Of a DNA stretch of 20,212 nucleotides, positions 217-19,060 are shown piece after piece; the stretch's first letter is position 1; each line of letters opens with the position of its first letter. This DNA is from a virus. The translations under genes were made by a program, and so were the position numbers. The stretch lies in IMG/VR virus record IMGVR_UViG_3300008267_000525, positions 1 through 20,212 of that record, one strand, 5' to 3'. The notes beneath the pieces are model-generated. The model had not been told where the DNA came from, ran no database searches, and saw only the letters and a list, made by a program, of their open reading frames with translations.

Positions 217-592
217 CCATTATGAAATTAACAAAGCTATTGAATTAGCTAAAGTATGGAATATGACTCCACAAGAAAGAGAGTTATATTATTACAAACA
301 ATCCCACAGACCAGAGAATAAAGAGTTTAATGATAAACCACATGACACTGGTTGGTATGGTACTAGAAGAAGAACTAGACCTTGGGATAACTGTTGGTTT
401 AGTAATAAACCACATATTATTAATCTTACTGTAGATGATGCAGTAAAAAAGTATCCGGATTATATCTTGTGGTGCTATAATAATCTTAATATTAAATGGT
501 CAGTTCATACTATTAAACTCATAGAATCTATTGTTACTTCACCTAAAAGAATGACAATGGAAGAATTTATGGAGATTAAAAGTATGTTATGA
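206..592 (+). CDS. small protein with ExoX-like C-terminal motif, unknown function
   Basis: 128 residues. The N-terminal half is rich in Arg, Trp and Tyr. Residues about 73-105 (DAVKKYPDYILWCYNN and following) resemble the short C-terminal motif of exodeoxyribonuclease-X-like and related small phage proteins, in which 'dpsYlrWl' follows a 'tleev' helix. That resemblance is by eye only, and no nuclease active site (DEDD) is present, so I do not call it a nuclease. The gene stands alone between two structured intergenic regions and starts within the conserved leader with ATG ATT ATG; either ATG could be used. A CCGG occurs at 455. Confidence 0.75.
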   Translation: MIMNHYEINKAIELAKVWNMTPQERELYYYKQSHRPENKEFNDKPHDTGWYGTRRRTRPWDNCWFSNKPHIINLTVDDAVKKYPDYILWCYNNLNIKWSVHTIKLIESIVTSPKRMTMEEFMEIKSML

Positions 593-604
593 TTTGTTAT
601 TCTT

Positions 605-723
605 ACCAAGTATAAAGTGAGGCAAAATCCGGAAACCTCTTAGAGTATAGTTAGACTGCAGATAACTGCTATATGCTCACATACGATAAAATCTGCTGAA
701 GTGAAGGTGTCAGCATACTTGGT
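605..723 (+). ncRNA. candidate structured RNA 2
   Basis: ACCAAGTAT 605-613 pairs perfectly with ATACTTGGT 715-723, closing 119 nt in a gap without genes. Immediately inside, GCTGA 695-699 pairs with TCAGC 710-714, abutting the closing helix. Further possible helices are GAGG 619-622/CCTC 636-639, GCAG 658-661/CTGC 666-669 with an ATAA loop, GTGAG 617-621/CTCAC 676-680 and GCAGAT 658-663/ATCTGC 691-696. Some exclude each other or cross, so a pseudoknot or a switch is possible. It does not resemble a tRNA or a complete group I intron core. Function and strand are inferred. Confidence 0.35.
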
Positions 724-734
724 TTATTTCTTAA

Positions 735-791
735 GTACACAGTAACGCGGTCAACTTGTGAGTGGGTGTGGTTAAAACTCTCACTGTGTGC
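735..791 (+). ncRNA. long hairpin before the lipoprotein gene
   Basis: GTACACAGT 735-743 pairs with ACTGTGTGC 783-791 (9 bp, one G-T), with a possible inner helix GAGT 760-763/ACTC 777-780. The 3' arm is followed by CTTTTATTTTG, so it could act as a weak terminator of the preceding RNA or as a 5' leader structure of the gene at 822. It begins 12 nt after the closing helix of RNA 2. Confidence 0.3.
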
Positions 792-821
792 TTTTATTTT
801 GTAACCCCTTAAACCCTTAAT

Positions 822-995
822 ATGAAAAATGTAATTATTGTAATCAAAGGATTAGCAATTGGAATGTGTATTATGTTATTACTATTACTTGTATCTTGTC
901 AGGCATCAAAGACTTGTCACGGTAATGGTAGAAAATATCACGTGGATAGATCTGTCCGCAAAGCACAGTCAAGACCATATGCTTATAGATATTAA
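822..995 (+). CDS. small predicted lipoprotein (57 aa)
   Basis: A short gene reading M-K-N-V-I-I... with a hydrophobic stretch (residues about 10-25) ending in LVSC, a good lipobox with Cys26 as the lipidated residue. The mature part is about 32 residues, basic, and rich in Arg, Lys and Tyr. It is preceded by an A-rich leader (CCCTTAATATG). Lipidation would place it in the inner or outer membrane. The residues after the Cys (QASK) are not the acidic export signal described for surface lipoproteins of Bacteroidota, so a periplasm-facing location is more likely. Small phage lipoproteins are often involved in superinfection exclusion or receptor masking; that role is only an inference. Confidence 0.65.
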   Translation: MKNVIIVIKGLAIGMCIMLLLLLVSCQASKTCHGNGRKYHVDRSVRKAQSRPYAYRY

Positions 996-1024
996 TTAAT
1001 CAGTAACCTTTAAAACCTTATAGT

Positions 1025-1207
1025 ATGATTGCACAGCAAATGATTGACCAGATTAGAGAGCTTAACAAGTATTTAAGCCGGAAAGAATTAGAAGAGCAAT
1101 ATTATGTTGCTCTTTATAAGTTAGATACAGTGGAGTTAACTCAACTCCGGGATTCATTATTACTTGAATCCACAGTATTTGTGAGACAACCTGATTTTGA
1201 AATTTAA
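1025..1207 (+). CDS. small unknown protein, coiled-coil-like
   Basis: 60 residues, charged, probably a helical hairpin (residues about 4-50 are helix-favouring, with heptad-like Leu/Ile spacing). There is no signal peptide, membrane segment or recognised motif. The start lies behind TTTAAAACCTTATAGTATG, a variant of the recurring leader. It is followed six bases later by the gene at 1214, so the two are probably co-transcribed. Codons 19 and 42 are CGG preceded by C, examples of the CCGG bias described in the findings. Confidence 0.65.
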   Translation: MIAQQMIDQIRELNKYLSRKELEEQYYVALYKLDTVELTQLRDSLLLESTVFVRQPDFEI

Positions 1208-1213
1208 AAACAA

Positions 1214-1471
1214 ATGATTATGAAAGAGCTTCAGGAAAAGCTAGATTTTTGGAACAACCTTAGAGATGAAGTTGTATTGGGTGATGTTCCAGCAGATTTG
1301 AAATATCAAATGCTATCAGATATTGAATATCAGATAGTAGTTATAGAAGATCAATTAGACAAGTTGATGCAGAATAACACAATTAATGCTATGACACTTA
1401 CATTAATAGCATTTTGTGGTGCAATTACCGGTCTATTTGGTTATGCTTTAACAGTAAAGTATTTAGTATAG
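1214..1471 (+). CDS. coiled-coil protein with C-terminal membrane anchor
   Basis: 85 residues. Residues 3-52 are a charged helix likely to form a coiled coil; residues about 60-82 are one hydrophobic, Gly-containing transmembrane segment close to the C terminus, giving a tail-anchored topology with the coiled coil probably in the cytoplasm. The start is ATG ATT ATG, as in three other genes here, and the second ATG at 1220 may be the true one. A candidate RNA pseudoknot follows the stop codon. Function unknown. Confidence 0.65.
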   Translation: MIMKELQEKLDFWNNLRDEVVLGDVPADLKYQMLSDIEYQIVVIEDQLDKLMQNNTINAMTLTLIAFCGAITGLFGYALTVKYLV

Positions 1472-1476
1472 TTGCG

Positions 1477-1522
1477 TACACCTCCAACCGCAGTGGACAG
1501 ACAAAAGGTGTAATAGTCTGTC
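1477..1522 (+). ncRNA. candidate H-type pseudoknot
   Basis: Two perfect 7-bp helices interleave: TACACCT 1477-1483 with AGGTGTA 1506-1512, and GACAGAC 1496-1502 with GTCTGTC 1516-1522. The loops are 12, 3 and 3 nt, a geometry allowing a classical pseudoknot. TTATTTATT follows. It lies between the stop at 1471 and the start at 1545, so it could be a leader element or riboswitch-like control of the 1545 gene. If only the second helix forms, it could act as a terminator. Confidence 0.4.
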
Positions 1523-1544
1523 TTATTTATTAACTAAAAAATGT

Positions 1545-1766
1545 ATGATTATGAGATTAGTAAGTTTTATTATGTATGTAAGTATAGGATTAGTAGTATT
1601 ACTTTTTCTAGAAGGTATGACAACGTTAGGTTCTGCTTTTGAATTTGAAAATTATTCAGTACTTGGATATATATTTCAAGCACTATTAGTTACAATTACA
1701 GTTTGTATAAGTGTAACTATATGGCATGATGAGCAGAGACAACAAGAGTTTAAACTAAAAAGGTAA
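1545..1766 (+). CDS. small two-span membrane protein
   Basis: 73 residues with two hydrophobic segments (about 5-23 and 39-60) joined by a short polar, acidic loop, and a charged C-terminal tail (HDEQRQQEFKLKR) predicted to be cytoplasmic. It starts with ATG ATT ATG behind an A-rich leader. The next gene begins three bases after the stop, so the two are in one operon. No family recognised. Confidence 0.65.
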   Translation: MIMRLVSFIMYVSIGLVVLLFLEGMTTLGSAFEFENYSVLGYIFQALLVTITVCISVTIWHDEQRQQEFKLKR

Positions 1767-1768
1767 TT

Positions 1769-2098
1769 ATGAAATGGTTCAGGAATTTATTTAAGAAAAA
1801 GAAAAAGTCTTATCCACAGGATAACAAGTTTTACCTCTGTATTATTGATGAGAATGGTCAGCAGTTGCACCAAAATCTAGGTATTACAGAAGAAAGAGCA
1901 GAACAGCTAACAAAACTATGTATTGATTCATATCAAAACAATGAGTTGTTATACAAGTGCCTTGATAATTTAGTCAAAGGATGTGTACATACCAATGAAA
2001 TTGTGTTTGCTACTATGGTTATGCATAAGGTAATAGACCGGTTTAATGCTAAGAATAGATTAGAGGACTTAATGAAAAACATGTTTAACAATGACTAA
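1769..2098 (+). CDS. unknown protein with basic N terminus
   Basis: 109 residues. The first 14 residues (MKWFRNLFKKKKKS) form a short, strongly basic amphipathic helix of the kind that can lie on a membrane surface or bind nucleic acid. The rest is soluble and helical, with three Cys. It follows a two-span membrane protein by three bases and overlaps the next gene by eight (ATG at 2091), which shows translational coupling. No known family. Confidence 0.65.
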   Translation: MKWFRNLFKKKKKSYPQDNKFYLCIIDENGQQLHQNLGITEERAEQLTKLCIDSYQNNELLYKCLDNLVKGCVHTNEIVFATMVMHKVIDRFNAKNRLEDLMKNMFNND

Positions 2099-2309
2099 GG
2101 ATTTAATTACTTCAGTACTTGGGTTTGACCTTAAGGCTGATATCAGAGATGAAACAGATCAGTTAATACCTGTTGGTATTAAGAAAACTATCTATCCAGC
2201 AGTTATGATGGAAAGACTTAACTACCGGATTGTAGACAAAAGTTTCTTTACTCACTATAATGAAGCTCTCATAGCTAAAATAAGAGACTTCAGAAGATTA
2301 AATGACTAG
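2091..2309 (+). CDS. small unknown protein
   Basis: 72 residues, soluble, mixed charge, with no recognised motif. The start overlaps the end of the preceding gene and the stop is two bases before the next ATG, so it is the middle of a coupled three-gene group (1769-2740). A CCGG lies at 2225 and supplies an unusual CGG arginine codon. Confidence 0.6.
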   Translation: MTKDLITSVLGFDLKADIRDETDQLIPVGIKKTIYPAVMMERLNYRIVDKSFFTHYNEALIAKIRDFRRLND

Positions 2310-2311
2310 TT

Positions 2312-2740
2312 ATGAGCAAGAAAATACATTTAGAACTTGAAGAAACAGATTTGTATAATGCTCTAAAGCAAATGATTAATCATCCAAATGCAGAAGAGAT
2401 AACTAAGTTATTAACTCCATTCATTGGCACTAGTCCTGATTGTACAAAATGGTTATTTAAGCTACTGTATGGCAAAAAACTTCCGGATGTAATTCCTGTA
2501 GGTACAATATGTCTTACTCATGTTAATAATCTAAGCTATGACATCAATAAACCAAAGACATTAGAGTCTGATTTATCTGATAACAATGGTATGATTGCTT
2601 GTACTATCAAGGAGTTTAGAGGTTTTCATGACTGGAAACATTATGAAGTTGAGTCTCTTGCTATTGATGCACAAGGTGAGCAAAAGGTATTTACTAGTTA
2701 TCTAATGGCTGATACATTAGAGATTATGGAAGAGTTTTAA
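2312..2740 (+). CDS. unknown protein, possible SH3-like C-terminal domain
   Basis: 142 residues. The N-terminal 60 residues are helical and acidic. Residues about 70-130 contain a beta-rich pattern ('IPVGTICLTHVNNL', then 'MIACTIKEFRGFHDWKHYEVESL') like the small barrel domains common in phage accessory proteins; a similar pattern occurs in the product of the gene at 8627. This is a visual judgement and gives no function. It is the last gene before the terminator at about 2783. Confidence 0.65.
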   Translation: MSKKIHLELEETDLYNALKQMINHPNAEEITKLLTPFIGTSPDCTKWLFKLLYGKKLPDVIPVGTICLTHVNNLSYDINKPKTLESDLSDNNGMIACTIKEFRGFHDWKHYEVESLAIDAQGEQKVFTSYLMADTLEIMEEF

Positions 2741-2782
2741 GATAGTATATCTGTGGATATGCTTTTCCTGACCAAATGATAC

Positions 2783-2812
2783 GGGGGCAGCAATGTCCCC
2801 TTTTCATTGTTT
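2783..2812 (+). terminator. rho-independent terminator 1
   Basis: GGGGGC 2783-2788 pairs with GTCCCC 2795-2800 (6 bp, one G-T), loop AGCAAT, followed by TTTTCATTGTTT. The T run is interrupted. The stem bases match those of terminator 2. It ends the 1769-2740 gene group. Confidence 0.75.
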
Positions 2813-2896
2813 AGCTATATAGTACAAGAATTTGTAATGTTGTGTAATTGGTATTCTTAAGAATAGTTTACATTTACTAAACTTTATGAATTTAAA

Positions 2897-3166
2897 ATGC
2901 TCTATCAACTGCCTAATGGCAAGGTAATATTTCTAACCATAGAACAATACTTAGATCTTACTGATGAAGATGAGCAATACCTTATGTCCTTAGATGCAGG
3001 AGAGTATGCATTAAATCCTTTTTTAGAATCAGCTGTTCTTCAGAACACAAAAGAAAAATATTATGACTTTGATTATCTACCAGATGATGAAAGTTGTGAT
3101 GACATTATATCAGATGATATTCCATTTGATGATATAATAGACCTTACGGGCCCACTGGATATATAA
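2897..3166 (+). CDS. acidic small protein, unknown function
   Basis: 89 residues, strongly acidic: the C-terminal third (from about residue 55) has some 13 Asp/Glu and almost no Lys/Arg. The N terminus 'LPNGKVIFLTIEQYLDLTDEDEQYLMS' has the look of a conserved beta-hairpin plus helix. Acidic phage proteins of this size are often DNA mimics or bind a host protein, but nothing here proves that. It has its own space between terminator 1 and the 3280 gene, and its stop codon lies inside the folded element at 3162-3226. Confidence 0.7.
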   Translation: MLYQLPNGKVIFLTIEQYLDLTDEDEQYLMSLDAGEYALNPFLESAVLQNTKEKYYDFDYLPDDESCDDIISDDIPFDDIIDLTGPLDI

Positions 3167-3226
3167 TACCGGAATTGCAATAAAGGTATTTACAACTTAT
3201 TACTAGACTGAGTGACTGGTATTATA
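3162..3226 (+). ncRNA. candidate folded element with two alternative hairpins
   Basis: TATAATACC 3162-3170 pairs with GGTATTATA 3218-3226 (9 bp). Its inner six bases AATACC 3165-3170 (overlapping the stop codon of the preceding gene) can instead pair with GGTATT at 3185-3190. The two pairings exclude each other, so the element could be a switch, or it may simply be a fold in the leader of the 3280 gene, which starts 54 bases downstream. Confidence 0.3.
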
Positions 3227-3279
3227 GTATTCTACTCAAAACATCTATTTATTTTATTAATTATTTAAAACTTAAAGTT

Positions 3280-3750
3280 ATGAATTCAAAAGTTCTAGTT
3301 GTAGCTGATGCTACTACAAATGCAGTTATTAATGTATCTACTAACAATCCTGAATGGGGTTATGTAAAATTACAACAAGCAAAAACAGTTGTAGATGACA
3401 ATGGTTTCTTAAGAAGAACAGTATTAACATCTTTAATTCAAGCTCCTGTAGCTATTTTACAGGAAATGAAGTATTATGGTGGACAAATTCTTCCAGGAAC
3501 ATTAGTGATTGAAGAGTCTTTGGAGCCTTTTAACAAAAAGAATCCAGAACGTGATCTTAAGATTGCAGGTAAAACTGGAATTGTATGTAGATTAGATGAT
3601 CAGCCTATTTACCGTAGAGTAAGATATACTGAGAATCCGGATGCAGTTAACAAAACTATTCAGCATACTAATGTTGAAGAGTTGCGTGAAGCATATAATG
3701 CACAATCTGCATCAACAGGAGTTAAACCTAATGGAGATTTTGCTATCTAA
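3280..3750 (+). CDS. unknown conserved-looking phage protein, own transcription unit
   Basis: 156 residues, soluble, beta-rich in the middle (residues about 25-110), with short conserved-looking stretches (NPEWGYVKL, PERDLKIAGKTGIVC, QPIYRR). It is preceded by TATTTAAAACTTAAAGTTATG, a strong version of the recurring leader, and followed at once by the best-formed early terminator, so it is probably expressed as a short and possibly abundant transcript. It uses several CGT arginine codons, unlike most neighbours, which fits high expression. The overall impression is of a nucleic-acid-binding or scaffold protein, but I cannot name the family. Confidence 0.75.
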   Translation: MNSKVLVVADATTNAVINVSTNNPEWGYVKLQQAKTVVDDNGFLRRTVLTSLIQAPVAILQEMKYYGGQILPGTLVIEESLEPFNKKNPERDLKIAGKTGIVCRLDDQPIYRRVRYTENPDAVNKTIQHTNVEELREAYNAQSASTGVKPNGDFAI

Positions 3751-3770
3751 TTAAGGGTTAGATTATCATA

Positions 3771-3800
3771 GGGGGCGGGAAACTGTCCCCTTTTTTATTT
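3771..3800 (+). terminator. rho-independent terminator 2
   Basis: GGGGGC 3771-3776 pairs with GTCCCC 3785-3790 (one G-T), loop of eight, followed directly by TTTTTTATTT. It is a strong classical terminator behind the 3280 gene, with the same stem as terminator 1. Confidence 0.85.
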
Positions 3801-3811
3801 ATGATTTAAAA

Positions 3812-4303
3812 ATGTATAACAAAATGGAAAAGCTAAAACAAGATGTAAAAAATTATCAGTTATCTGCAGGTAGAATGTACATGCAGTATGAAACTGACGG
3901 GTATTCACAATACCAAAATTATTTATACAAAAGAGCACTATATGGTCTAGATGCTCTGACACAACAAGAATTGGCTACTATGTGTAGTAAGAAGAAACAA
4001 AGAATAGTTAATGTTTATAAGAGAGCACAGATTGTACTTAACAAGTTTAAACAACAAGTTACAGTGCAATATACTAACTTTATATTCAAGACTTTGTTTC
4101 CCAAAAGTCCTCTCACAGAGCTATTACTAGCTGATACTGAGACTGATGACAAGTTCAAGAATACTTTAACTTTTAAAGATTTAGGTATAAATAAAGAACA
4201 AATTATTAGTATCTTTATGGCTGAAGGTATCCTTCCTAAAAACTTTTTAAGTTTAGATAAGGATCCAAACCAATTACCAAGACTTAAAAACCAAAGAGTA
4301 TGA
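3812..4303 (+). CDS. unknown helical, basic protein
   Basis: 163 residues, Lys-rich and helical, with a central basic stretch (MCSKKKQRIVNVYKRAQ, residues about 57-73) that could bind nucleic acid. It is the first gene after terminator 2, so it should open the long 3.8-13.1 kb transcription unit. A second in-frame ATG at 3824 (MEKLKQD) could be the real start. It overlaps the next gene by four bases (ATGA). Confidence 0.7.
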   Translation: MYNKMEKLKQDVKNYQLSAGRMYMQYETDGYSQYQNYLYKRALYGLDALTQQELATMCSKKKQRIVNVYKRAQIVLNKFKQQVTVQYTNFIFKTLFPKSPLTELLLADTETDDKFKNTLTFKDLGINKEQIISIFMAEGILPKNFLSLDKDPNQLPRLKNQRV

Positions 4304-4632
4304 GAACATTTTATGATAGAAGAGCAGGTGAAAAACCTGGATACAGATCTAGCTTAGAAACTGTAGAAGGAAAAATGATTTGGAAAACAAAAACTCACTG
4401 GCTTATTTATGTAGATCCTGATGATTACTATAGTTCAGCTATGAGCTTTATACACGGTGAAGATAGATATCACACAACTCTTATTGGATACATTGTTATT
4501 CCAAAAGGTGTGATAATTCACAGTTGTTATTTAGCTACAGGTTTCTGGGATGGTCTTAAAGCTTTATTTAGAAGTGGAGAGACTCCTGCAGTAACTAAGA
4601 CTAAAGGTGAATTTCCTGAAGAGCTTTTGTGA
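4300..4632 (+). CDS. unknown small protein
   Basis: 110 residues, rich in aromatic residues, with one moderately hydrophobic stretch (about 74-95) that is too short and polar for a confident membrane segment. It starts in an ATGA overlap with the preceding gene and its stop shares a base with the next start (TGATG), so it is translationally coupled on both sides. No family recognised. Confidence 0.65.
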   Translation: MRTFYDRRAGEKPGYRSSLETVEGKMIWKTKTHWLIYVDPDDYYSSAMSFIHGEDRYHTTLIGYIVIPKGVIIHSCYLATGFWDGLKALFRSGETPAVTKTKGEFPEELL

Positions 4633-4925
4633 TGCCAAAGCATGATGCAATATTTGAGGAAATATGTTTTTATAGTGAATACTTACAGAAATCTCTAGTT
4701 GATAAACTACAGATATTCTGGGTAGATAGCACTAATACATATCAGATAGTCCCCGTCAAAGAAGGCGGGGCTGTATCATATGAAGTTTTTAAAGTGACTA
4801 ATGTGCGTGAAGTATTAATCTTTAAGTCTAAGAAGAAAGCTATGCAGTATGTAGTAACACAGTTATTCACTGAATTATTTGATTATGAACAAGAATTTAC
4901 CAGAGATTCCGGGCTTCCTTTCTGA
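4632..4925 (+). CDS. unknown small protein
   Basis: 97 residues from the ATG at 4632; a GTG one codon upstream is less likely because the ATG sits in a typical TGATG overlap. Soluble, with a Lys-rich helix (SKKKAMQYVVTQLF) near the C terminus. The coding sequence contains an unexpected GC-rich hairpin (CCCCGTC 4751-4757/GGCGGGG 4764-4770). Its 3' end overlaps the next gene by 41 bases, long for this genome. Confidence 0.65.
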   Translation: MPKHDAIFEEICFYSEYLQKSLVDKLQIFWVDSTNTYQIVPVKEGGAVSYEVFKVTNVREVLIFKSKKKAMQYVVTQLFTELFDYEQEFTRDSGLPF

Positions 4926-5127
4926 TCATATACTTACACTTAGAGGATATGAAGGTTGGTGGAGATCTAGGTTTTCAACTCTTGAAATACATGCTAGTGG
5001 TTCAGGTTATAGGATTACACATGATGATGCACATCCTTTTAAAGGTGCTTACTATGACACATTAGAAGAAGCAGTTTATCATGTTAGGTATAGAGCAATA
5101 ACTAATTTTCTAGGAGATGAGTATTAG
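4885..5127 (+). CDS. unknown small protein, tandem paralogue A
   Basis: 80 residues from the ATG at 4885; the sequence TTGATTATG before it resembles the double-start leader but begins with TTG. It shares a pattern with the following gene: PGF near the N terminus, a W..F/W...F core, and a C-terminal helix TLEEAVYHVRYRAITNF matching TIHDAMDYIRHQAIINF. The two therefore look like an old tandem duplication. Function unknown; the size and overlap suggest a small phage accessory protein. Confidence 0.65.
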   Translation: MNKNLPEIPGFLSDHILTLRGYEGWWRSRFSTLEIHASGSGYRITHDDAHPFKGAYYDTLEEAVYHVRYRAITNFLGDEY

Positions 5128-5347
5128 AAATTATCCAGGATTTAAATGGTACCCTTTTCCAAAAGCAGATGGAAATATATATGATACTTGGGAAGCACAG
5201 TTTACTAAGGCTAATGTTATATCTATTGAAGGTAATTTTTATGCCAATATAAAAGATATAAGAGGTCATATAATGCATGCAACTATTCATGATGCTATGG
5301 ATTATATTAGACATCAAGCAATAATTAACTTTTTTGATGAAGACTAA
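5117..5347 (+). CDS. unknown small protein, tandem paralogue B
   Basis: 76 residues, the diverged partner of the gene at 4885 (shared PGF, aromatic core, and a C-terminal '...A..Y.R..AI.NF..ED' helix). It overlaps both neighbours by about 11 bases. The final FDED is acidic, as is GDEY of the partner. No known family. Confidence 0.65.
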   Translation: MSIRNYPGFKWYPFPKADGNIYDTWEAQFTKANVISIEGNFYANIKDIRGHIMHATIHDAMDYIRHQAIINFFDED

Positions 5348-5741
5348 GATATGTGATGGATGTGGGTTAGAAAGACCCATATGGAAGAGTAGTGGAACCG
5401 GGGGACTAAAGCTATGTAAAAACTGCTGGAGTTGCCACAAAAGCGGAGATACTGAACAGAAACCAACAAATTCTGCTATCCCCCGTGTTTCTGCTAAAAG
5501 AGCTAAGAAAGATGCGGAGTATAGTAAGTTAAGACAAAGGTATCTTACAGAGAATCCACTATGTGTTATTAAAGTAGCCGGTTGTGCTAATGGTGCAACT
5601 GATATACACCATACAAGAGCTGGTAAAGATAGAGATGTATATTACCTTGTACAGAGTACTTGGTTAGCAGTTTGTAGAAACTGTCATGATTGGGTGCATA
5701 GTCACCCGGAAGAAGCCCGCACAATGGGTTGGTTAAAATAA
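5337..5741 (+). CDS. HNH endonuclease with N-terminal zinc ribbon
   Basis: 134 residues from the ATG at 5337 (a TTG codon before it is less likely). Residues 6-30 hold two CxxC pairs (C6-C9, C27-C30), a zinc ribbon. Residues 76-121 form the HNH fold: C76...C83, the IHH at 90-92 with the catalytic His, then C113-xx-C116-H117 and H121. Such enzymes cut or nick double-stranded DNA. In phages they are packaging-related, mobile, or recombination nucleases. The gene is embedded by overlap in the operon, which suggests a resident gene rather than a recent insertion. Confidence 0.8.
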   Translation: MKTKICDGCGLERPIWKSSGTGGLKLCKNCWSCHKSGDTEQKPTNSAIPRVSAKRAKKDAEYSKLRQRYLTENPLCVIKVAGCANGATDIHHTRAGKDRDVYYLVQSTWLAVCRNCHDWVHSHPEEARTMGWLK

Positions 5742-5753
5742 TTTATTAATGAT

Positions 5754-5773
5754 TTAAAACTTATGATTATGAA
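5754..5773 (+). repeat. conserved translation-start leader, copy 2
   Basis: A 20-base exact copy of 197-216, again placed so that it contains the ATG ATT ATG double start, here of the ParB-like gene. It follows a 21-base gap after the HNH gene. Confidence 0.6.
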
Positions 5774-6524
5774 AACAGAATTAAAAGATGCCTTAGCATT
5801 ACTTAGAAAAATTAAATTCAGTAAAGACTACAAAAAGTTTGCTTTCCTTGAGATTAATAGAATAACTGACACAGAGCATATCCAAAAGATGATTGCTAGT
5901 GTTAGAAATATGGGTGTAATAAGACCTGTAATATGTGTTAGAGTAACATTTGTTGATGGTAAATCTCAGTTATATGTTATTGACGGTCAGCACTTGTTTA
6001 AGAGTCTTATGTCAGAAGATCTAGAAATACCTTATGTAGTAATTGATGTTAAAGATAAGATTGACATGGTGCATAAAATGGCTATGTTAAACAATTCATC
6101 TAAGTCTTGGACATTGCTTAATTATGTTAATGCATTTAAAATGCACCTTAGAGATTACTATCTATTAGATGAACTAAGAGTTATGTATAACATTGAACCT
6201 TTAATGTTGGCTACAATATGTACTAATGGTACTGAGTCTTCAATCTCTGGTTCAAGATTAATAAAATCTGGTGAGTTTAAAATTACTAATCCGCAAGCTC
6301 AAGAAATGGCAAAAGCATTCAATGATTTCTTTTTGAAGATTGGTAGAGCAGATAGATGGGTTAAGCATCACTTTTTACAAGTATTCTTGAGAGCTTGGGG
6401 TACATATGATCACCAACAGTCTTTAGATAATCTTAATAAACATATTGCTACTATTAAGGCTATGAGTGATACTAGTGCTGCAGAAGCTTTTATAAGCAAA
6501 AACATATTTAATCTAACAAAATGA
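5763..6524 (+). CDS. ParB-like N-terminal-domain protein
   Basis: 253 residues. Residues about 27-95 match the ParB/Srx fold: a 'plan' strand, a helix, VIRPVICVRV, then the signature LYVIDGQHLFKSL (residues 70-82, DGQH at 74-77) corresponding to IIDGHHR of ParB-like proteins. 'MLNNSSKSWTLLNYVNAF' (109-125) is the usual follow-on helix pair. ParB-type domains bind CTP and DNA in partition proteins; phage relatives include nucleases and DNA-modification partners. The arginine found in GERR-type boxes is not evident, so the catalytic type is uncertain. It overlaps the SF2 helicase gene by four bases, suggesting joint action. Confidence 0.8.
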   Translation: MIMKTELKDALALLRKIKFSKDYKKFAFLEINRITDTEHIQKMIASVRNMGVIRPVICVRVTFVDGKSQLYVIDGQHLFKSLMSEDLEIPYVVIDVKDKIDMVHKMAMLNNSSKSWTLLNYVNAFKMHLRDYYLLDELRVMYNIEPLMLATICTNGTESSISGSRLIKSGEFKITNPQAQEMAKAFNDFFLKIGRADRWVKHHFLQVFLRAWGTYDHQQSLDNLNKHIATIKAMSDTSAAEAFISKNIFNLTK

Positions 6525-12084: not shown

Positions 12085-12494
12085 TGGGTAAAAGAGAAGA
12101 TAAAGAGCTAAGTAAACTTTGTGTAGCTATTTGTTCTGATCATTATGAGCTGTTAAAAAATGTGGATCCTAATATGAGTTATACTTTTAACTTATATGCC
12201 AACGGACCTTATCAAGGAGACTATAGAAAGTTTATGTTTTATGGTGAGTTAAAGCTTAATAAAATCTTAGGTTTAATTACTGCTGAAGAAGTAGAAAATG
12301 TATTCAATATGATGGTATCAGAAGATAAGGATAACTTCTATATTGTGGTACAGATAGTTAAACACTATATGAAAGAAAGACATGCTAAGTTTGGAGCTTT
12401 AATGGACTATAAAGGCTATGATCATGCCCGGCAAAATTATTCACAAGAAGTATTAAATCCAACAGATTTCTTACTTAAACTAGTAAACAAATGA
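12084..12494 (+). CDS. unknown soluble protein
   Basis: 136 residues, mixed helical, with some aromatic-rich strands in the first half (YTFNLYANGPYQGDYRKFMFYGELKL) and helices after. There is no motif I recognise. It is coupled by overlaps to both neighbours (TAATG before, ATGA after). Confidence 0.65.
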   Translation: MGKREDKELSKLCVAICSDHYELLKNVDPNMSYTFNLYANGPYQGDYRKFMFYGELKLNKILGLITAEEVENVFNMMVSEDKDNFYIVVQIVKHYMKERHAKFGALMDYKGYDHARQNYSQEVLNPTDFLLKLVNK

Positions 12495-12742
12495 CAGAAG
12501 AAGAATTAATAGATTTAGGATTTGATCAGGTGCACATAGCAGATGCAGATAGTCAGAATGGATATGATTATTATTTTTATCAAAAAGAAGTTTGTGACAA
12601 TATAGTTCTATATACCACAGATAGTATAGATGTTAAAGATAATAGTTGGGCAGTTAGATGTTGGGATATACCAGCAATTAGAATAACTACAAAAGAGCAT
12701 TTTATGCAGTTTGTAGAAATGATTAATAATATAACTTGTTAG
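12491..12742 (+). CDS. unknown small acidic protein
   Basis: 83 residues, acidic, predicted alpha/beta (LIDLGF start, then alternating strands, then a C-terminal helix). The 'G(F)..... YDYYFYQKEV......I' layout is distantly like paralogues C and D, and could be a third member of that family; this is a weak visual similarity. Confidence 0.6.
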   Translation: MTEEELIDLGFDQVHIADADSQNGYDYYFYQKEVCDNIVLYTTDSIDVKDNSWAVRCWDIPAIRITTKEHFMQFVEMINNITC

Positions 12743-12743
12743 C

Positions 12744-13118
12744 ATGTTATCAGTAAAATTAGTTAAGCAAGATGGTAAGTTGACATATCCTGATGATAAA
12801 TCTAGGTTAGCTTATCAAATCTTTTTGGATAAACTTCCAGAAGGACAGAAAGTAGAAATGTATATTGGTTTAGCAGATGCTGACCACAGTATTGCACAAT
12901 TGGCAAAAGTGCATGCATGTATAAGAGAATTAGCCAAAGAATCTGGCTATACTTTTGAAGAAATGAAAGTGCTGATTAAAGAAAGATCCGGCTTATGTTA
13001 TGACGGAGGAGATGCAACATTTTGCAAATCTTTTGCAGACTGTAGTAAAGATGAATTAGCTTTAGCTATTGAAGCTTGTGTAGAAGTAGGTAAGTTATAT
13101 AATATTAATCTAGCTTAG
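12744..13118 (+). CDS. possible NinB-like recombination protein
   Basis: 124 residues. The central 'AQLAKVHACIRELAKESGYTFEEMKVLIKERSGLC' (51-85) has the layout of the NinB/ORF-type core, in which an 'sxxQnaxxhaxixxia' helix is followed by a basic segment, and the C terminus 'CKSFADCSKDELALAIEACVEVG' fits the helical end. NinB assists RecF/RecA-type recombination in lambda. The match is by eye, and other small nucleic-acid-binding proteins are possible. It converges with the minus-strand gene, overlapping its end by 14 bases. Confidence 0.55.
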   Translation: MLSVKLVKQDGKLTYPDDKSRLAYQIFLDKLPEGQKVEMYIGLADADHSIAQLAKVHACIRELAKESGYTFEEMKVLIKERSGLCYDGGDATFCKSFADCSKDELALAIEACVEVGKLYNINLA

Positions 13119-13416
13119 GTGCTACATAACCTTCATCACCAGGCTCAAGTACTTCTTTTTCTACAAACAATTCTTTAGTTTTAGCAACTTGTTCTATTTC
13201 AGCTAGTAATAAAGACATTGTGTAAAAAGATCTTTGAGCTTCATCCATGTCTTTGTATTCTTTGTTAAGAATTTCTTTGATATAGGCATCTTTATCATCA
13301 GCTGTTATTTGAGTAACAAGATGAAACAAAACAGATTTAACCATTAAGTAATAGTTTTTGTTGACTTTTACTTCAATGATTGCATCATCTTTTAGTTCTT
13401 TAACTTTTATCGCCAT
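13105..13416 (-). CDS. minus-strand unknown phage protein
   Basis: 103 residues from the ATG at 13416; the longer frame to 13434 needs TTG. It is a regular protein: a beta N terminus (IKVKELKDDAIIEVKVNKNYYLMVK), a helical middle (EAQRSFYTMSLLLAEIEQ), and an unusual C-terminal PGDEGYVAPKLD. I recall similar short proteins from other phages of Bacteroidota, but no function. It is the only real minus-strand gene of the window, convergent with 12744 and back to back with ung, so it must have a separate promoter and perhaps separate timing. Confidence 0.75.
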   Translation of the reverse strand: MAIKVKELKDDAIIEVKVNKNYYLMVKSVLFHLVTQITADDKDAYIKEILNKEYKDMDEAQRSFYTMSLLLAEIEQVAKTKELFVEKEVLEPGDEGYVAPKLD

Positions 13417-13431
13417 TGTGTTAGTTTTAAA

Positions 13432-13439
13432 CAAAAATA
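13432..13439 (-). promoter_or_regulatory. possible -7 box for the minus-strand gene
   Basis: Read on the minus strand, TATTTTTG fits TAnnTTTG and would start transcription about 12 bases before the ATG at 13416. No good TTTG is found at the right distance, so this is tentative. Confidence 0.3.
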
Positions 13440-13447
13440 AATAAAAT

Positions 13448-14161
13448 ATGAATCAGAAACTAGATTTAGAGGAAATTAAAGATAAGCTATATGCTAGATT
13501 AGAAGACTCAGGGTGGTCAACAAAACTAAGAAGTTTTATATACAGTACAGAGTTTGATAAAATTATTACTGAGTTAGCTAGGCTATCTATGGATGGTAGA
13601 AGATTTACTCCGCCATTAAAACAAATGTTTAGAGCATTTGAGGTATGTCCTGTAAATGAAGTTAAAGTAATTATAGTAGGGCAAGATCCGTATCCTCAAT
13701 TAGGTGTTGCTGATGGAATAGCATTTAGTTGTAGCAACACTAAAGAGTTACAACCTAGTCTTAGATATTTACTAGATGAAATAAACAGAACTGTTTATAA
13801 TGGACATCCTGGAAGTCTTGATACAGATTTAACAAGATGGGCAGAACAAGGTATACTATTAGTTAATACTGCTCTTACAACTACAGTAGGTAAGATAGGG
13901 CAGCATTACAATATATGGAAACCGTTTTTAGCTTACCTGTTTGATTATTTAACATGGAATGAAACAGGACTTGTATATGTATATATGGGTAAACAAGCTC
14001 AAGAATGGTCTGAAGCAGTTAATGATAACAACTATAAGTTTTTTGTTAGCCATCCTGCCAGTGCTGCATATAATCAGCAGGAGAGATGGAACTCAGATAA
14101 CCTATTTGTTAAGATTAATGAAGTTGTAGAAAAACAATTTAATGCAAAAATTACTTGGTAA
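13448..14161 (+). CDS. ung: uracil-DNA glycosylase, family 1
   Basis: 237 residues. The catalytic motif GQDPYP is at 78-83 (D80 activates water; the usual final His is Pro, as in some family members), followed by GVADGIAFS. LLVNTALT (137-144) carries the uracil-binding Asn140, and SHPAS (201-205) the catalytic His202 loop. It removes uracil from DNA by cutting the N-glycosidic bond. In the replication block it would protect AT-rich phage DNA from deamination and dUTP incorporation. It is back to back with the minus-strand gene, so its promoter must lie in or before 13417-13447. Confidence 0.93.
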   Translation: MNQKLDLEEIKDKLYARLEDSGWSTKLRSFIYSTEFDKIITELARLSMDGRRFTPPLKQMFRAFEVCPVNEVKVIIVGQDPYPQLGVADGIAFSCSNTKELQPSLRYLLDEINRTVYNGHPGSLDTDLTRWAEQGILLVNTALTTTVGKIGQHYNIWKPFLAYLFDYLTWNETGLVYVYMGKQAQEWSEAVNDNNYKFFVSHPASAAYNQQERWNSDNLFVKINEVVEKQFNAKITW

Positions 14162-14751
14162 TGACAGAGATATTTCAAAGGTTGATAAAAGAGAACCTTA
14201 CACCAAACACTTACTATGTTTTGCATTGTATAAGAGAAAAAATAGTACCCTATAATTATGTCAATAAAGAACTTGAGTGCAAAAGGCTGCAACAAGATCA
14301 TTGGATAGATGAAAACTTGCAACTTACAAGTAAAAGTCTTATCTTTATGGAGGAAATTAACGGGTTCTTTAAGAGAACTAAAAAGAAAACACTCAGAGAT
14401 TTAATGGGAGATGGCTTCCTAGAGAAGATACAGGAATATGTAGAAATATTTCCTAATAGGAAACTTAACTCTGGTAAATATGCTAGGGTTAATCCCAAGA
14501 ATCTTGAAGGTGCTTTTAAATGGTTCTTTGAGAATTATGATTATGACTGGGAGACAATCCTAAAAGCTACTGAAAAATATGTTGATGAATTTAGTGTTAG
14601 AAATTATGAGTATATGAGAAACTCTCAGTATTTCATAAGGAGACAGAATCTAGATAAGACATTTGAATCTGATCTAGCAACATATTGTCAGTTATTAAAT
14701 ACAACCCTTGATGGAGAAGGTGGTTCTTATTTTAAAGAAAAAGTGGTATGA
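14161..14751 (+). CDS. probable helicase-loader-like replication protein
   Basis: 196 residues from the ATG in a TAATG overlap with ung. The N terminus (about 1-60) looks like a winged-helix domain; the C-terminal half (IQEYVEIFPN..., ARVNPKNLEGAFKWFFENYDYDWETILKATEKYVDEF...YMRNSQYFI) is helical with many aromatic residues, like the DnaD-type or loader domains found just before phage DnaB genes. Position (one small gene before DnaB) and shape suggest a primosome or helicase-loading role. No motif proves this; the assignment is contextual. Confidence 0.5.
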   Translation: MTEIFQRLIKENLTPNTYYVLHCIREKIVPYNYVNKELECKRLQQDHWIDENLQLTSKSLIFMEEINGFFKRTKKKTLRDLMGDGFLEKIQEYVEIFPNRKLNSGKYARVNPKNLEGAFKWFFENYDYDWETILKATEKYVDEFSVRNYEYMRNSQYFIRRQNLDKTFESDLATYCQLLNTTLDGEGGSYFKEKVV

Positions 14752-14924
14752 TAAAAGGAATTTTAATAGTTGTAGCAATATTAGGAAGCATCATAGGTTA
14801 TTGCATAGTAGATTTATTTATTGTTGCAATACCTTTTTGGAAGTATTTCCTTATAGAATTTGTAATAACATTATTACATGAAGTTTACAATCAAACAAAA
14901 ATTAAATTAACAACAAATCTTTAA
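14748..14924 (+). CDS. small membrane protein (58 aa)
   Basis: The ATG at 14748 overlaps the preceding stop (ATGA) and the stop at 14922-14924 is four bases before dnaB. One long hydrophobic segment (about 3-29), a second weaker one (33-45), and a basic tail. An integral membrane protein inside a replication operon is unusual; it may anchor replication to the membrane or be an unrelated accessory protein. Confidence 0.6.
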   Translation: MIKGILIVVAILGSIIGYCIVDLFIVAIPFWKYFLIEFVITLLHEVYNQTKIKLTTNL

Positions 14925-14928
14925 TACA

Positions 14929-15930
14929 ATGGCAGAATTATTTAATGGAGCCAGGCCTTTGCTGCCTGTAAGTGAAAGAGACTCTCTAAGAAAAGCAATC
15001 CTTAAGATGAAAGGCAGGAGAAATGGAGATATTAAATCTCTAAAAAGTGCTTGGCCCAAATTTAATGATGCTTTTTGTGATGGATTAGAATGGAGAACTA
15101 TCACCGTAGTTGGTGCTAGACCTGGAACAGGTAAAACTTTATTCTTAGAACAGTTATTTAGTGATATAATAGATCACAATCCTGATCAAGAATTTAGAAT
15201 ACTTAAGTTTCAGTTTGAGATGGTAGATGAAACTAGTGGAGTAAGAAAACTTAGTTTAGAAACCGGTGCTGATTACAATACATTAATGAGTAAAGATGGA
15301 GTGAAGGTAGATAAAGCAATCTATGACAAGTGTGTTGAATACTATGAGAAATCTGCTGAGCATGATCTTACTAGAGTTTTGTATGACACTTGTAATGTTG
15401 ATGAAATGTGTGCAACTATTCATTATGAAATGGAAAAGTTTAAAAAACCAGATGGAACATATATGAATATGCTTGTTGGTATAGATCACTCAACATTATT
15501 TGCAAAAGCAAAATCACAAAAGGATGACTTTGAGATGCTCTCAGCATTAGGCAAGGCACTCACTATGATGAAAAAAAACTATCCAGTGGCTTTTGTAGTG
15601 TTAAGTCAGCTTAACAGAAACATAGATAATGTAGAGAGGCAGAGAGATGGAGAGTATGGAAATTATGTATTGGATTCAGATATTTATGGGTCAGATGCTT
15701 TATTGCAGCATGCGGATGTAGTCTTAGGTATAAATAAACCTTCTCTAAGAAAAATAAGACAGTATGGTCCTGATAGATATATTATAAATGATGAAGACTT
15801 GTTAGTCTTTCATTTTCTAAAATCTAGAAATGGTACCACAAGGATGAGCTTCTTTAAGCTAGACAGAACAATCATGAGGATTGTAGAGGTAGCTACTCCA
15901 GCACAAGCAACAAAAAAAGCATCAATTTAA
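14929..15930 (+). CDS. dnaB: DnaB-type replicative helicase (C-terminal domain only)
   Basis: 333 residues. RecA-like core: Walker A GARPGTGKT 62-70; H2 region FQFEM 95-99; Walker B MLVGIDH 181-187; H3 SQLNR 226-230; and HADVVLGINKP, then LKSRNGTT near 302-309 with the H4/arginine-finger region. Bacterial DnaB is about 470 residues with an N-terminal primase-binding domain; here only a 45-residue basic segment precedes the ATPase core, so that domain is missing. It should form a hexamer unwinding DNA 5' to 3' at the fork. Its partners are probably the primase at 18080 and the protein at 14161. Confidence 0.9.
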   Translation: MAELFNGARPLLPVSERDSLRKAILKMKGRRNGDIKSLKSAWPKFNDAFCDGLEWRTITVVGARPGTGKTLFLEQLFSDIIDHNPDQEFRILKFQFEMVDETSGVRKLSLETGADYNTLMSKDGVKVDKAIYDKCVEYYEKSAEHDLTRVLYDTCNVDEMCATIHYEMEKFKKPDGTYMNMLVGIDHSTLFAKAKSQKDDFEMLSALGKALTMMKKNYPVAFVVLSQLNRNIDNVERQRDGEYGNYVLDSDIYGSDALLQHADVVLGINKPSLRKIRQYGPDRYIINDEDLLVFHFLKSRNGTTRMSFFKLDRTIMRIVEVATPAQATKKASI

Positions 15931-15944
15931 AATGTAAATAGAGT

Positions 15945-16598
15945 ATGAGAAAAGAAAAAGAAAAAGAGTTTTTTGCAGTACACTTGGAGACTTTCAGAGC
16001 TCATAGTATAGCAGATCCTAATTTTGTTATTAAGACAGCTTACTTTGTAAAAGGTCAAGCAGAAAGGCAATTTCAGCTTTTTGAGTCTGAAATAATTAAG
16101 GGAACTGACATATACATAGAGTTCTATGATAATGTTAAAGATGAAAAGGATGTTCTGGTTGATATTGTGCCATTCAATTCTGATAGACAATTATTTAAGT
16201 ACAGAAGCAATCCGTATTTTAGAGAAGAGTATGAAATAAAAGAAGGTGTAAACTATAAAGGTGAGCCTTATAAACTTTATACTATTCCTGTAACTGAATT
16301 GAGGGCTATTCTTAAAGATGGTACTGAAATACCATATACTGTATATCAGAAAAGAAAAGATACTGGTGAACCTAAAAAGGAAGAGACTAAGTTACCAAGA
16401 CTACAACAGTCTTTGTTTCCTGATTTTGAGGCAGAAGCTGGTTCTGATTTAAAAGTAGAAGATAATGTAGAGATTGCTGATGCACCTTTGAGTGAAGTAA
16501 CTATTAGAGATTTAGCAGCAATTATGCTAATGGAGCCAGTAAGTGCTAAGCCTTGGCTGAATGATTTAATTAAAAAACATACAAAAAGTGAAATATGA
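15945..16598 (+). CDS. unknown replication-block protein with possible clamp-binding motif
   Basis: 217 residues. The N-terminal 135 residues are alpha/beta without a recognised motif. A linker (about 136-180) contains LQQSLFPDF; QQSLF at 154-158 matches the QxxLF type of beta-clamp-binding peptide. The C-terminal helix 'VTIRDLAAIMLMEPVSAKPWLNDLIKK' (about 184-213) looks conserved. It lies between dnaB and the Sak4-like gene, with ATGA overlap to the latter, so it probably works at the fork or in recombination. Function unknown. Confidence 0.7.
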   Translation: MRKEKEKEFFAVHLETFRAHSIADPNFVIKTAYFVKGQAERQFQLFESEIIKGTDIYIEFYDNVKDEKDVLVDIVPFNSDRQLFKYRSNPYFREEYEIKEGVNYKGEPYKLYTIPVTELRAILKDGTEIPYTVYQKRKDTGEPKKEETKLPRLQQSLFPDFEAEAGSDLKVEDNVEIADAPLSEVTIRDLAAIMLMEPVSAKPWLNDLIKKHTKSEI

Positions 16599-17320
16599 GT
16601 ATAGTACTTCCAACAAGTAAAGTAAAGGCAAGTCAGGTTAATCCAAAGAGATTACTGATTTATTCAAAGCCAAAGACAGGTAAGACAACTGCATTTGCAG
16701 GATTAGAAAACAATCTGATTATAGATTTAGAAAATGGTTCTGATTATGTAGATGCTCTTAAGATTAAAGTTAGCAATCTTCAGGAGCTATTAGATGCCGG
16801 TAAAGCAATCAAAGAAGCAGGTAAACCCTATAAGTATGTTACTATAGATACTGTGACTGCATTAGAGTCTATGATTATGCCGCTTGCCATTAAGCTGTAT
16901 AAGAATACTCCAATGGGTAAAAGTTTCAGTGGTGATACTGTTTCTACATTGCCAAACGGTGCTGGATATTTATATATCCGTGAAGCATTCTTCCAGGTTT
17001 TAGATTTTATTGATACCTTAGCACCCCACATTATTTTATCTGGTCACATTAAAGACAAGGTGGTTGATGATAAGGGTGAGATGGTTATGTCTGCAAACAT
17101 TGATTTGACAGGTAAAATCAAATCTTTAATCTGTGCAAATGCTGATGCAATTGGTTATATGTATAGAAAAGGAAACAAAACTATTTTAAGTTTCAAAACT
17201 AGTGAAGAAGTAACTTGCGGTGCAAGACCAGATCATTTGAGAAATCAAGAGATAGTAATTACAGATTCAGAGAGTGGAGTTTTAACAACTTCATGGGACA
17301 AAGTATTCATTAATAATTAA
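16595..17320 (+). CDS. Sak4-like RecA-fold ATPase
   Basis: 241 residues. Walker A SKPKTGKT 24-31, a short beta with LIIDLENGS, Walker B YVTIDT 81-86, then GHIKDK and TGKIKSLICANADAIGYMYRKG. This matches the AAA/RecA-like single-domain ATPases of the Sak4 group, which anneal or exchange single strands together with a phage SSB. The next gene is indeed SSB-like. In phages of this kind it serves recombination-dependent replication and repair. Confidence 0.85.
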   Translation: MSIVLPTSKVKASQVNPKRLLIYSKPKTGKTTAFAGLENNLIIDLENGSDYVDALKIKVSNLQELLDAGKAIKEAGKPYKYVTIDTVTALESMIMPLAIKLYKNTPMGKSFSGDTVSTLPNGAGYLYIREAFFQVLDFIDTLAPHIILSGHIKDKVVDDKGEMVMSANIDLTGKIKSLICANADAIGYMYRKGNKTILSFKTSEEVTCGARPDHLRNQEIVITDSESGVLTTSWDKVFINN

Positions 17321-17331
17321 AATAAATAACA

Positions 17332-18018
17332 ATGGGATTAAGTACAAAAGACCTAGTAACAAGTGGAGGCGGAGGGCTTCCTAAAACAATTTCACCTGGA
17401 AACAACAGACTTAAAATTAACAAGCTAGAGCTTGAAGATTTTAGTTTTATTGAAGGTGCAAAGCATTTGCTTTTACATGTAGAAACAGAGCCAATTGAAG
17501 GTTTTGAAGGTTTCTGGATTGATAAAGACAATGAAAGTTTAGGAAAACATGCTGGTCAAGTAGGTAAAGTAAAAGCAAGTATGTATGCTTTTGCTGATGG
17601 TGTTACTAAAGGTGGAATTAAGATTGAGAGAGATAGATCTTTGATGATATTTCTTAAAAGTCTGTGCAACAACCTAGGTATTTCTAGTTGGTTTGATAGC
17701 CAAGATGATTTACATGCTACTATTGATGACTTTGTAATTGCTTTCAACAAATCTGCACCGTTTAAAGATATATATCTAGACTTCTGTGTTGCTGGTAGAG
17801 AGTATATTGATAAGAATGGTTATACTAATTATAACTTGTATCTTCCAAAAGCAGAAAAAGGCAAGTATGCTTATGGTAGTACTAAAGATGGTAAAGTAAT
17901 GACTTTTAATGAAAGTATTCACTTAAAGAAACAAGAAGTACAAGAAGTTAAAAACTTTGGAGATGATGATGATTTAACTATCCCAAGGAAGACTTCTACT
18001 GATTTCAGCTTAGACTAA
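17332..18018 (+). CDS. single-stranded DNA-binding-like protein
   Basis: 228 residues. A Gly-rich N terminus, a beta-rich core about 20-195 with aromatic positions suited to an OB fold, and an acidic C-terminal tail (GDDDDLTIPRKTSTDFSLD) ending in a hydrophobic-acidic tip, as in SSB and T7 gp2.5, which use the tail to contact partners. It lies 11 bases after the Sak4-like gene and is followed by a strong terminator, the usual Sak4-SSB pair. The fold itself is inferred. Confidence 0.7.
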   Translation: MGLSTKDLVTSGGGGLPKTISPGNNRLKINKLELEDFSFIEGAKHLLLHVETEPIEGFEGFWIDKDNESLGKHAGQVGKVKASMYAFADGVTKGGIKIERDRSLMIFLKSLCNNLGISSWFDSQDDLHATIDDFVIAFNKSAPFKDIYLDFCVAGREYIDKNGYTNYNLYLPKAEKGKYAYGSTKDGKVMTFNESIHLKKQEVQEVKNFGDDDDLTIPRKTSTDFSLD

Positions 18019-18033
18019 TTAAACTAGTCAAGA

Positions 18034-18068
18034 GGGGTCAGTTAATACTTCTGGCCCCTTTTTTATTT
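18034..18068 (+). terminator. rho-independent terminator 3
   Basis: GGGGTCAG 18034-18041 pairs with CTGGCCCC 18051-18058 (8 bp, one T-G), loop TTAATACTT, followed by TTTTTTATTT. A strong terminator closing the ung-to-SSB unit and separating it from the primase gene. Confidence 0.92.
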
Positions 18069-18079
18069 AATTATGTGTT

Positions 18080-19060
18080 ATGATTTCAACCAAAGGACTG
18101 ATATCTGATATAAAAGATGTACCGGATGAATGGATTTATGAATATTATTTAAACCTAAAAGAAAAACTTACAGGTCAAGATATAAAAATGCTTTCTGCAT
18201 TTAACTCAAAGGATAAAGTTCCTTCTATGTTTGTGTATTTTGATGTGGTATCTAATAGATATAAGCACAAAGATTTTTCTTCTGGTAATCAAGGTAGCTC
18301 ATGGAATTTAATTCAACAGTTGTATAACCTGACTCCAGGTGATGCAGCTAAGAAAATAATGAATGACTATCAAGCATATCTTAAAAACAATACAGTAGTT
18401 GAGAAGAGAGAGATAGTAATACATGACAAATTTAAGGTTGTGGATTATGAGATGAGGCACTGGAATAATTTAGATAAAGATTACTGGACAGGTTTTAAGA
18501 TTGGATCTAGTATACTTGATAGATATAATGTTGTTCCTTTAGATTTCTTTACAATGGAGAAAACAGAAACAGATGGTACTATGACTTCATTTGTGTTTAA
18601 GAAACCATATACTTATGGTTATTTTAGAGATGATGGGAGTTTATACAAAATTTACATGCCCAGGGTACCAGATAAGAAATTTATAAAGGTTGAGAATTAT
18701 ATCCAAGGTATGGATCAGCTTAAGTATGAAAGTAAATATCTACTGATTACTTCTTCTCTTAAAGATCTAATGTGTTTTAATAGACTAGGTATAAATAATA
18801 TTGAAGCAATTGCTCCGGACAGTGAGAATACTATGATAGGTGAAAGAGCTATGAGTGAGTTTGTAAGACATTATCAAAAGATTATTGTTCTGTTTGATAA
18901 TGATGAGCCGGGGATTAAAGCAGCTGAAAGATATAAGCAAATGTATGGATTTAATTATATTGTCCTGCCTATGGAGAAAGATCTTTCAGATTCTGTTAAG
19001 CTACATGGTATAGATAAAGTAAGAGATATATTATTTCCACTATTAAAACAAGTATTATGA
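18080..19060 (+). CDS. Toprim primase (DnaG-like), degenerate zinc domain
   Basis: 326 residues. Residues about 38-85 follow the fold of the DnaG zinc domain (KVPSMFVYFD...YKHKDFSSGNQGSSWNLIQQLYNLT) but have none of its zinc-binding Cys/His set. Residues about 220-320 are a Toprim domain: LLITSSLKD (221-229), then VLFDNDEPG (270-278, D273 and D275), then KDLSD. At the acidic position usual in EGxxD there is Ser (S225). It synthesises RNA primers for the DnaB fork. It heads the unit after terminator 3. The missing Glu and zinc ligands may be a lineage feature. Confidence 0.85.
   Translation: MISTKGLISDIKDVPDEWIYEYYLNLKEKLTGQDIKMLSAFNSKDKVPSMFVYFDVVSNRYKHKDFSSGNQGSSWNLIQQLYNLTPGDAAKKIMNDYQAYLKNNTVVEKREIVIHDKFKVVDYEMRHWNNLDKDYWTGFKIGSSILDRYNVVPLDFFTMEKTETDGTMTSFVFKKPYTYGYFRDDGSLYKIYMPRVPDKKFIKVENYIQGMDQLKYESKYLLITSSLKDLMCFNRLGINNIEAIAPDSENTMIGERAMSEFVRHYQKIIVLFDNDEPGIKAAERYKQMYGFNYIVLPMEKDLSDSVKLHGIDKVRDILFPLLKQVL

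Follow-up and report, generated by a model that had tools for sequence, protein, structure and literature searches.

The window analysed here, the whole 20,212-nucleotide (20.2-kb) stretch of virus record IMGVR_UViG_3300008267_000525, comes from an environmental member of a Crassvirales clade, and its most conspicuous property is a severe shortage of the dinucleotide CpG, accompanied by an apparent surplus of the tetramer CCGG. CpG depletion extends over the whole window (1..20212, no strand assigned), with an observed/expected ratio of 0.18 and a grading by the 5′ neighbour, read on each strand, of T < A <= G << C. By exact counts and flank tables, most of the surviving CpGs stand in CCG/CGG context, and the 88 of them include 29 CCGG sites (455..18911, likewise without strand).

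The genes of the window lie mostly on the plus strand and are replication genes only, with no capsid or ring genes among them. Pfam and PHROG matches comprise a ParB-like protein, a ResIII helicase, GIY-YIG and HNH endonucleases, a uracil-DNA glycosylase (UDG), DnaB, a Sak4-like AAA_24 protein and a Toprim primase. The Sak4-like gene (16595..17320, plus strand; Pfam AAA_24 5.8e-27, PHROG Sak4-like) served as the marker for gathering and ordering relatives. One of them, G001 (115.9 kb), has 98% Sak4 identity to the window and carries Crass_capsid (1e-30), CrAss_Ring_1 and CrAss_Ring_2 in a genome of the class of about 100 kb, as expected of Crassvirales; the named relatives are gut Crassvirales with 33-51% Sak4 identity. 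Counting near-duplicates, our clade sample comprises 105 loci of 6 kb or more, and our outgroup sample 28 loci beyond the clade. The FCL-2 terminase, tried as a background set, matched itself only (2 loci). A search of genome contigs for relatives returned a single match, a Crassvirales-like contig (L113, G023:C2, 27,194 bases) binned in a metagenome-assembled genome (MAG) of Candidatus Caenarcanum bioreactoricola, which is probably a mis-binned phage.

CCGG and CpG in the window

The initial annotation had described CCGG as strongly enriched in a CpG-poor genome. All 29 of its start positions proved correct, as did its single GCGC and single CGCG; GGCC occurs 8 times rather than about 7, and the CpGs, rare as stated, number 88 rather than the 100 or so estimated by eye. 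At 2.42 times the expectation from base composition, CCGG ranks first among the 256 tetramers. The sites fall in every codon phase, in 9, 8 and 11 cases (the middle figure had been given as 7), and nine of the ten in-frame CGG codons follow a C. This spread over the phases, together with the strand symmetry of the pattern, upholds the view that the pressure acts on DNA rather than on protein or codon choice.

A Markov or codon-shuffled expectation had been proposed as the touchstone of the excess, and the two disagree. Shuffling of synonymous codons (n=300) yields 11.6 +/- 3.0 coding CCGG against 28 observed, or, phase by phase, 0.8 against 9, 6.1 against 8 (not significant) and 4.7 against 11, so that a clear excess is left, whereas a second-order Markov model expects 31.8 sites where 29 are found. 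The Markov model shows no excess because the CCG and CGG trinucleotides, and not the tetramer, carry the signal; its result was rejected as a sole verdict, given the disagreement of the shuffle. Nor is the excess local, as seen in the relative G001, where 189 CCGG (2.15x) are spread at 26-38 per piece over six pieces of 16-20 kb. Across the window group CCGG stands at 2.1-2.4x, and farther clade members are lower (G003 0.92x, G009 0.94x). The reported crowding of 19 of the 29 sites into the first 7.8 kb is real (p 0.004), but CpG overall is concentrated there likewise (49/88, p 0.001), and the clustering is therefore not specific to CCGG. This CpG-denser part (1-7800) contains small genes without annotated function.

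A loss graded by half-sites

The main fact is the missing CpG, above all TCG/CGA, rather than an enriched CCGG. Trinucleotide ratios per strand in the window are 0.01 for both TCG and CGA (2 occurrences each, far below composition), 0.12 for both ACG and CGT, 0.16 for GCG and 0.18 for CGC, and 0.80 for CCG and 0.59 for CGG, while TpG and CpA are mildly raised (1.17 each). Non-palindromic NCGN tetramers are as avoided as palindromic ones (ACGA/TCGT 0.01 and GCGA/TCGC 0.04, beside ACGT 0.05 and TCGA 0.00), and CCGG is not alone in being spared, as shown by CCGC/GCGG (0.69) and CCGT/ACGG (0.53). A C before the CpG and a G after it act independently, the two-by-two table of the window being 29/21/27/11 with an odds ratio of 0.56, and that of G001 giving 1.07.

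These observations can be condensed in a half-site product model, which assigns one factor to the NCG of each strand and describes the ten symmetric NCGN classes with four parameters, leaving 6 degrees of freedom and containing no CCGG term. The factors are about 1.6 for C, 0.4 for G, 0.3 for A and 0.03 for T in the window, and 1.46, 0.42, 0.30 and 0.052, respectively, in G001. The deviance of this model is 5.8 in the window, 8.4 in G001 and 4.2 in G002, whereas additive loss rates of the two strands give 25, 78 and 98, and a uniform loss of CpG gives 230 in the window, 1224 in G001 and a range of 230-1278 over all three. Multiplied factors did better than additive rates in 14 of 15 clade sets. 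Since the product model fits the window without a CCGG term, CCGG there needs no explanation of its own.

The pattern across the clade

Observed/expected CpG lies at 0.07-0.43 over the 105 clade loci and is at least 0.3 in three only (L185, L192, L193). In 104 of these loci no context is better preserved than CCG/CGG; CCGG reaches 0.9 or more in 102 and exceeds composition in 101. Among the 28 non-clade loci, 24 have CpG at 0.58-1.00, four are depleted (L113 0.20, L118 0.10, L227 0.37 and L235 0.17), and CCG is the best-kept context in nine. A like sparing of CCG occurs in Dulem virus 41 (L290, 65000-80000), a lemur-gut phage with a UDG that lies beyond the window clade, with CpG at 0.45, CCG/CGG at 1.04 and 54 CCGG (2.27x).

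Selection or mutation

Changes were scored at four-fold sites only, which avoids mixed codon constraints, in 769 pairs of genes that share 86-97% identity and add up to 472 kb. CpGs in the depleted contexts had changed more often than other sites, at 80 of 97 sites with a third-position G and at 41 of 59 with a third-position C, the matched non-CpG figures being 832/1717 and 769/1412. Transitions made up 53/80 and 30/41 of these CpG changes, in total 83/121 (0.69), and 559/832 and 537/769 of the non-CpG changes, in total 1096/1601 (0.68). At spared CpGs the share was 62/90 and 185/301, the second lying below its control of NCC followed by H (561/798). The comparison of G001 with G002 alone had the same outcome, with few counts. 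The mark of 5-methylcytosine decay, an excess of CpG-to-TpG/CpA transitions, is thus absent at the four-fold sites of the 769 gene pairs. Had decay been strong enough to deplete CpG ten- to fifty-fold, transitions should make up a share several times as high; that the share is unmoved argues against methyl-cytosine decay, and it is strongly suggested that CpG has been lost through selection and not hypermutation.

CpG loss and the uracil-DNA glycosylase

The gene at 13448..14161 (plus strand) encodes what its motifs identify as a family-1 uracil-DNA glycosylase, with predicted activity (Pfam UDG 7e-10; PDB UDG chains, best E 6.8e-23). It has GQDPYP for GQDPYH and HPASAAY for the HPSP-type motif, with the HP motif kept, and its conserved Tyr and Asn residues presumably imply uracil specificity. 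UDG was sought in whole records with the Pfam model, the window protein and a six-row alignment, with tblastn listings for a few, and CpG was computed on 8-120 kb per record, with a threshold of 0.55 chosen after the values had been seen. CpG falls below this threshold in 20 of the 21 records with a UDG (0.02-0.50), the exception being MT835476 (CpG 1.75, GC 0.49), whose UDG is more distant, and in 0 of the 19 UDG-less records of at least 90 kb (0.58-1.00). Counted by loci, CpG is under 0.6 in 85 of 88 UDG bearers and under 0.3 in 63 of them; the three that exceed 0.6 are L314 (0.69), L349 (0.70) and L344 (0.67). The contrast recurs among Flavobacterium phages, although genome size and kind differ as well: FpV4 (0.02) and FPSV-S29 (0.05) have a UDG, whereas 6H (1.05) and FCL-2 (0.94) do not. 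The phage contig from the Caenarcanum MAG (0.20) carries one too.

Speaking against the association, UDG was found neither in G022, a 47.6-kb fragment with CpG 0.24, nor in the 12.4-kb fragment behind L227 (0.37), and, because the lineages are related, the exact-test p of 3e-10 for UDG versus CpG overstates the evidence. In Sak4 the window clade is closer to the UDG-less gut Suoliviridae (~50%) than to the UDG-bearing Steigviridae (~37%), and it is with the latter that it shares CpG loss. Among Crassvirales and their kin, phages with a UDG tend to be the CpG-depleted ones, a lead drawn from lineages that are not independent. The UDG homologue of Cellulophaga phage phi14:2 (L297:161-871) has GKEPY and EDP instead of the GQDPY and HP motifs and may be inactive; at 0.50, the CpG loss of this phage is the mildest among the named Steigviridae examined. 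In PMC7886860, UDG is counted among the enzymes of nucleotide metabolism.

Weighing the explanations

Our preferred explanation, to which we give a probability of about 0.6, is that CpG is avoided throughout the genome and that the CCGG excess is what this avoidance has left over, the cause being selection on double-stranded DNA against NCG, from which CCG is exempt. In the window the identity of N fixes how strongly each NCG is depleted, with like values on the two strands, and the joint effect is the product of both factors; CCG half-sites are free or slightly favoured, so that CCGG, with two such ends, stays close to neutrality or above it, whereas TCGA disappears. Every NCG, on either strand, may then bear a small independent fitness cost. 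A putative agent in the infected cell would act at the CpGs of double-stranded DNA, disfavouring those with C as the 5′ neighbour, and it could be an enzyme, from host or phage, that modifies or damages DNA at CpG, with the phage UDG as a possible part of the same biology. More speculatively, a CpG-directed attack on cytosine, host- or phage-borne, might have UDG as its repair partner or effector. That an enzyme attacking CpG cytosines and sparing CCG is at work when UDG-bearing Crassvirales or their relatives infect a cell, either as a host defence (for instance a CpG-directed deaminase whose uracils are repaired by the phage UDG) or as the phage's own destroyer of host DNA, is a doubtful proposal that we put forward tentatively.

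Several results weigh against the preferred explanation. The product model is rejected (deviance > 12.6, 5%) in 6 of the 15 sets (G008, G009, G011, G013, G017, G019), and G011 is better fitted by additive rates. An extra CCGG factor is significant (p < 0.05) in five sets, namely G008 (1.5), G011 (3.6), G013 (1.9), G014 (2.0) and G021 (2.3), of which G013 and G021 are close kin. The order of contexts varies, TCG/CGA being lowest in 82 of the 105 loci and GCG in G013, G014 and G021. A plain exemption predicts CCGG at 1x, so that the level of the window group leaves a mild positive preference for CCG unaccounted for. The gene pairs, made unique by exact sequence alone, are not fully independent, and the agent is hypothetical, the genomes compared coming from the phage side. 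Some sub-lineages favour the CCGG palindrome somewhat, and a CCGG-specific component may exist there. In L149, L159, L161, L162, L183, G013 and G021, GCG/CGC is nearly gone (0.00-0.06) and the CCGG palindrome is favoured (odds ratios 1.9-18).

The same extra factors, together with the excess over composition in nearly every clade locus, are what would support selection of CCGG itself as a phage modification, protein-binding or very-short-patch-repair motif, a reading close to what the initial annotation had offered (a modification site, very-short-patch repair or a recognition motif) and one that we consider highly improbable. The flank interaction is not significant in the window and nine other clade sets, among them G001, G002, G003, G006, G016, G017 and G018, other CCG-containing tetramers are spared too, the CCGG sites of the window are no better conserved in close relatives (0.60) than other tetramers (0.53-0.73), and no wider flank consensus was seen by eye around the 29 window sites. 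Nor did the phage-borne cytosine methyltransferase or Vsr homologue that it had suggested looking for turn up: Vsr (PF03852) matched 0/13 phage records and C5-methylase (PF00145) 0/12 and 0/10, some of these records being fragments, with a lone PF00145 match in the Caenarcanum MAG itself. Among phage records of which several are fragments, N4/N6 methylase gave 0/13, Dam 0/13 and D12 methylase 0/11, and a Pfam scan of G001 found no methylase family in 100 of its 102 open reading frames of at least 90 aa (two of more than 1500 aa and the smaller frames left out). PADLOC, run on 48 G001 proteins (L084), gave hits to PbeA models and to a single restriction-like model of type IV (methyl-directed). 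Methylation of CpG by host or phage followed by decay to TpG/CpA, with CCG methylated or decaying less so that CCGG survives, would suit a CpG-specific depletion with modest gains of TpG and CpA, and a host methylase is possible. We nevertheless regard it as unlikely, for the transition share is raised in neither depleted nor spared contexts, C-A/G-T exchanges are many (CCGG in close relatives shows 35 transitions and 28 transversions, raw and uncorrected for codon constraint), per-strand decay predicts additive rates, which are the poorer fit in 14 of the 15 sets, and the C5-methylase was missing from the phage records.

Avoidance of the CpG-containing sites of several host restriction systems, CCGG not being among them, is improbable in our judgement. 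CpG loss can accompany restriction avoidance, as in crAss001 (CpG 0.03) and FpV4 (0.02), which are also without GATC, GGCC and CTAG, and GGCC stands at 0.33 in G001; yet non-palindromic NCGN are equally avoided in the window, its GATC, CATG, CTAG and GTAC remain at 0.79-1.13, and G001, with the 587 CpGs that it keeps, would hardly be expected to escape if every one of them were cut efficiently. Copying of the oligonucleotide signature of a CpG-poor host is very unlikely. Phage and host signatures do often agree, but 20 kb from each of two plasmids of freshwater Bacteroidota, which may not resemble the real hosts, show ordinary CpG levels, 0.83 in Emticicia and 1.11 in Runella, and FpV4 and 6H, at opposite ends in CpG, share the host Flavobacterium psychrophilum.

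Relation to known systems and implications

When phages avoid certain oligonucleotides, these are as a rule taken to be restriction sites. With restriction-site avoidance the window shares the strand-symmetric depletion of short motifs by selection; it differs in being dinucleotide-based, with graded and independent flanks, and in leaving GATC, CATG, CTAG and GTAC near normal. It resembles the vertebrate-type suppression of CpG by 5-methylcytosine decay in what is lost and mildly gained, but shows no CpG transition excess, no C5-methylase was found in the phages searched, and its flank effects are about 50-fold. In vertebrate RNA viruses CpG is suppressed by selection of the ZAP type, and here too selection rather than mutation would act against CpG itself; the window, in contrast, is symmetric on both DNA strands, belongs to a bacterial virus and exempts CCG. 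Closest are crAss001, DAC15, cr116 and FpV4, Crassvirales or related phages that combine a UDG with CpG at 0.02-0.10, although every CpG context is lost in them, CCG is not spared, and crAss001, cr116 and FpV4 have hardly any GATC. Besides their scarcity of CpG, crAss001 (L111), FpV4 (L287) and FPSV-S29 (L288) have few or no GATC, GGCC and CTAG sites, a pattern suggestive of broad restriction avoidance that the window clade does not show. Our literature search found no account of CpG depletion in crAss-like phages, and the portion of PMC6235969 available makes no mention of restriction, CpG or methyl.

In the window clade avoidance takes the form of a quantitative rule to which each NCG half-site contributes one factor; this rule agrees with selection acting on double-stranded DNA but not with the decay of methyl-cytosine. 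It also carries a caution, in that CCGG, or any spared motif, should not be read as enriched in its own right. In this survey the rule co-occurs with one phage gene, that of UDG. If this link is causal, it would point to a CpG-directed attack on DNA in infections of Bacteroidota by phages, an idea that the cultured CpG-depleted phages crAss001, DAC15 and FpV4 make testable. Were the agent a phage-borne destroyer of host DNA, the phage would be safe through the purging of its own CpGs, and motif purging would amount to a discrimination of self from non-self without modified bases.

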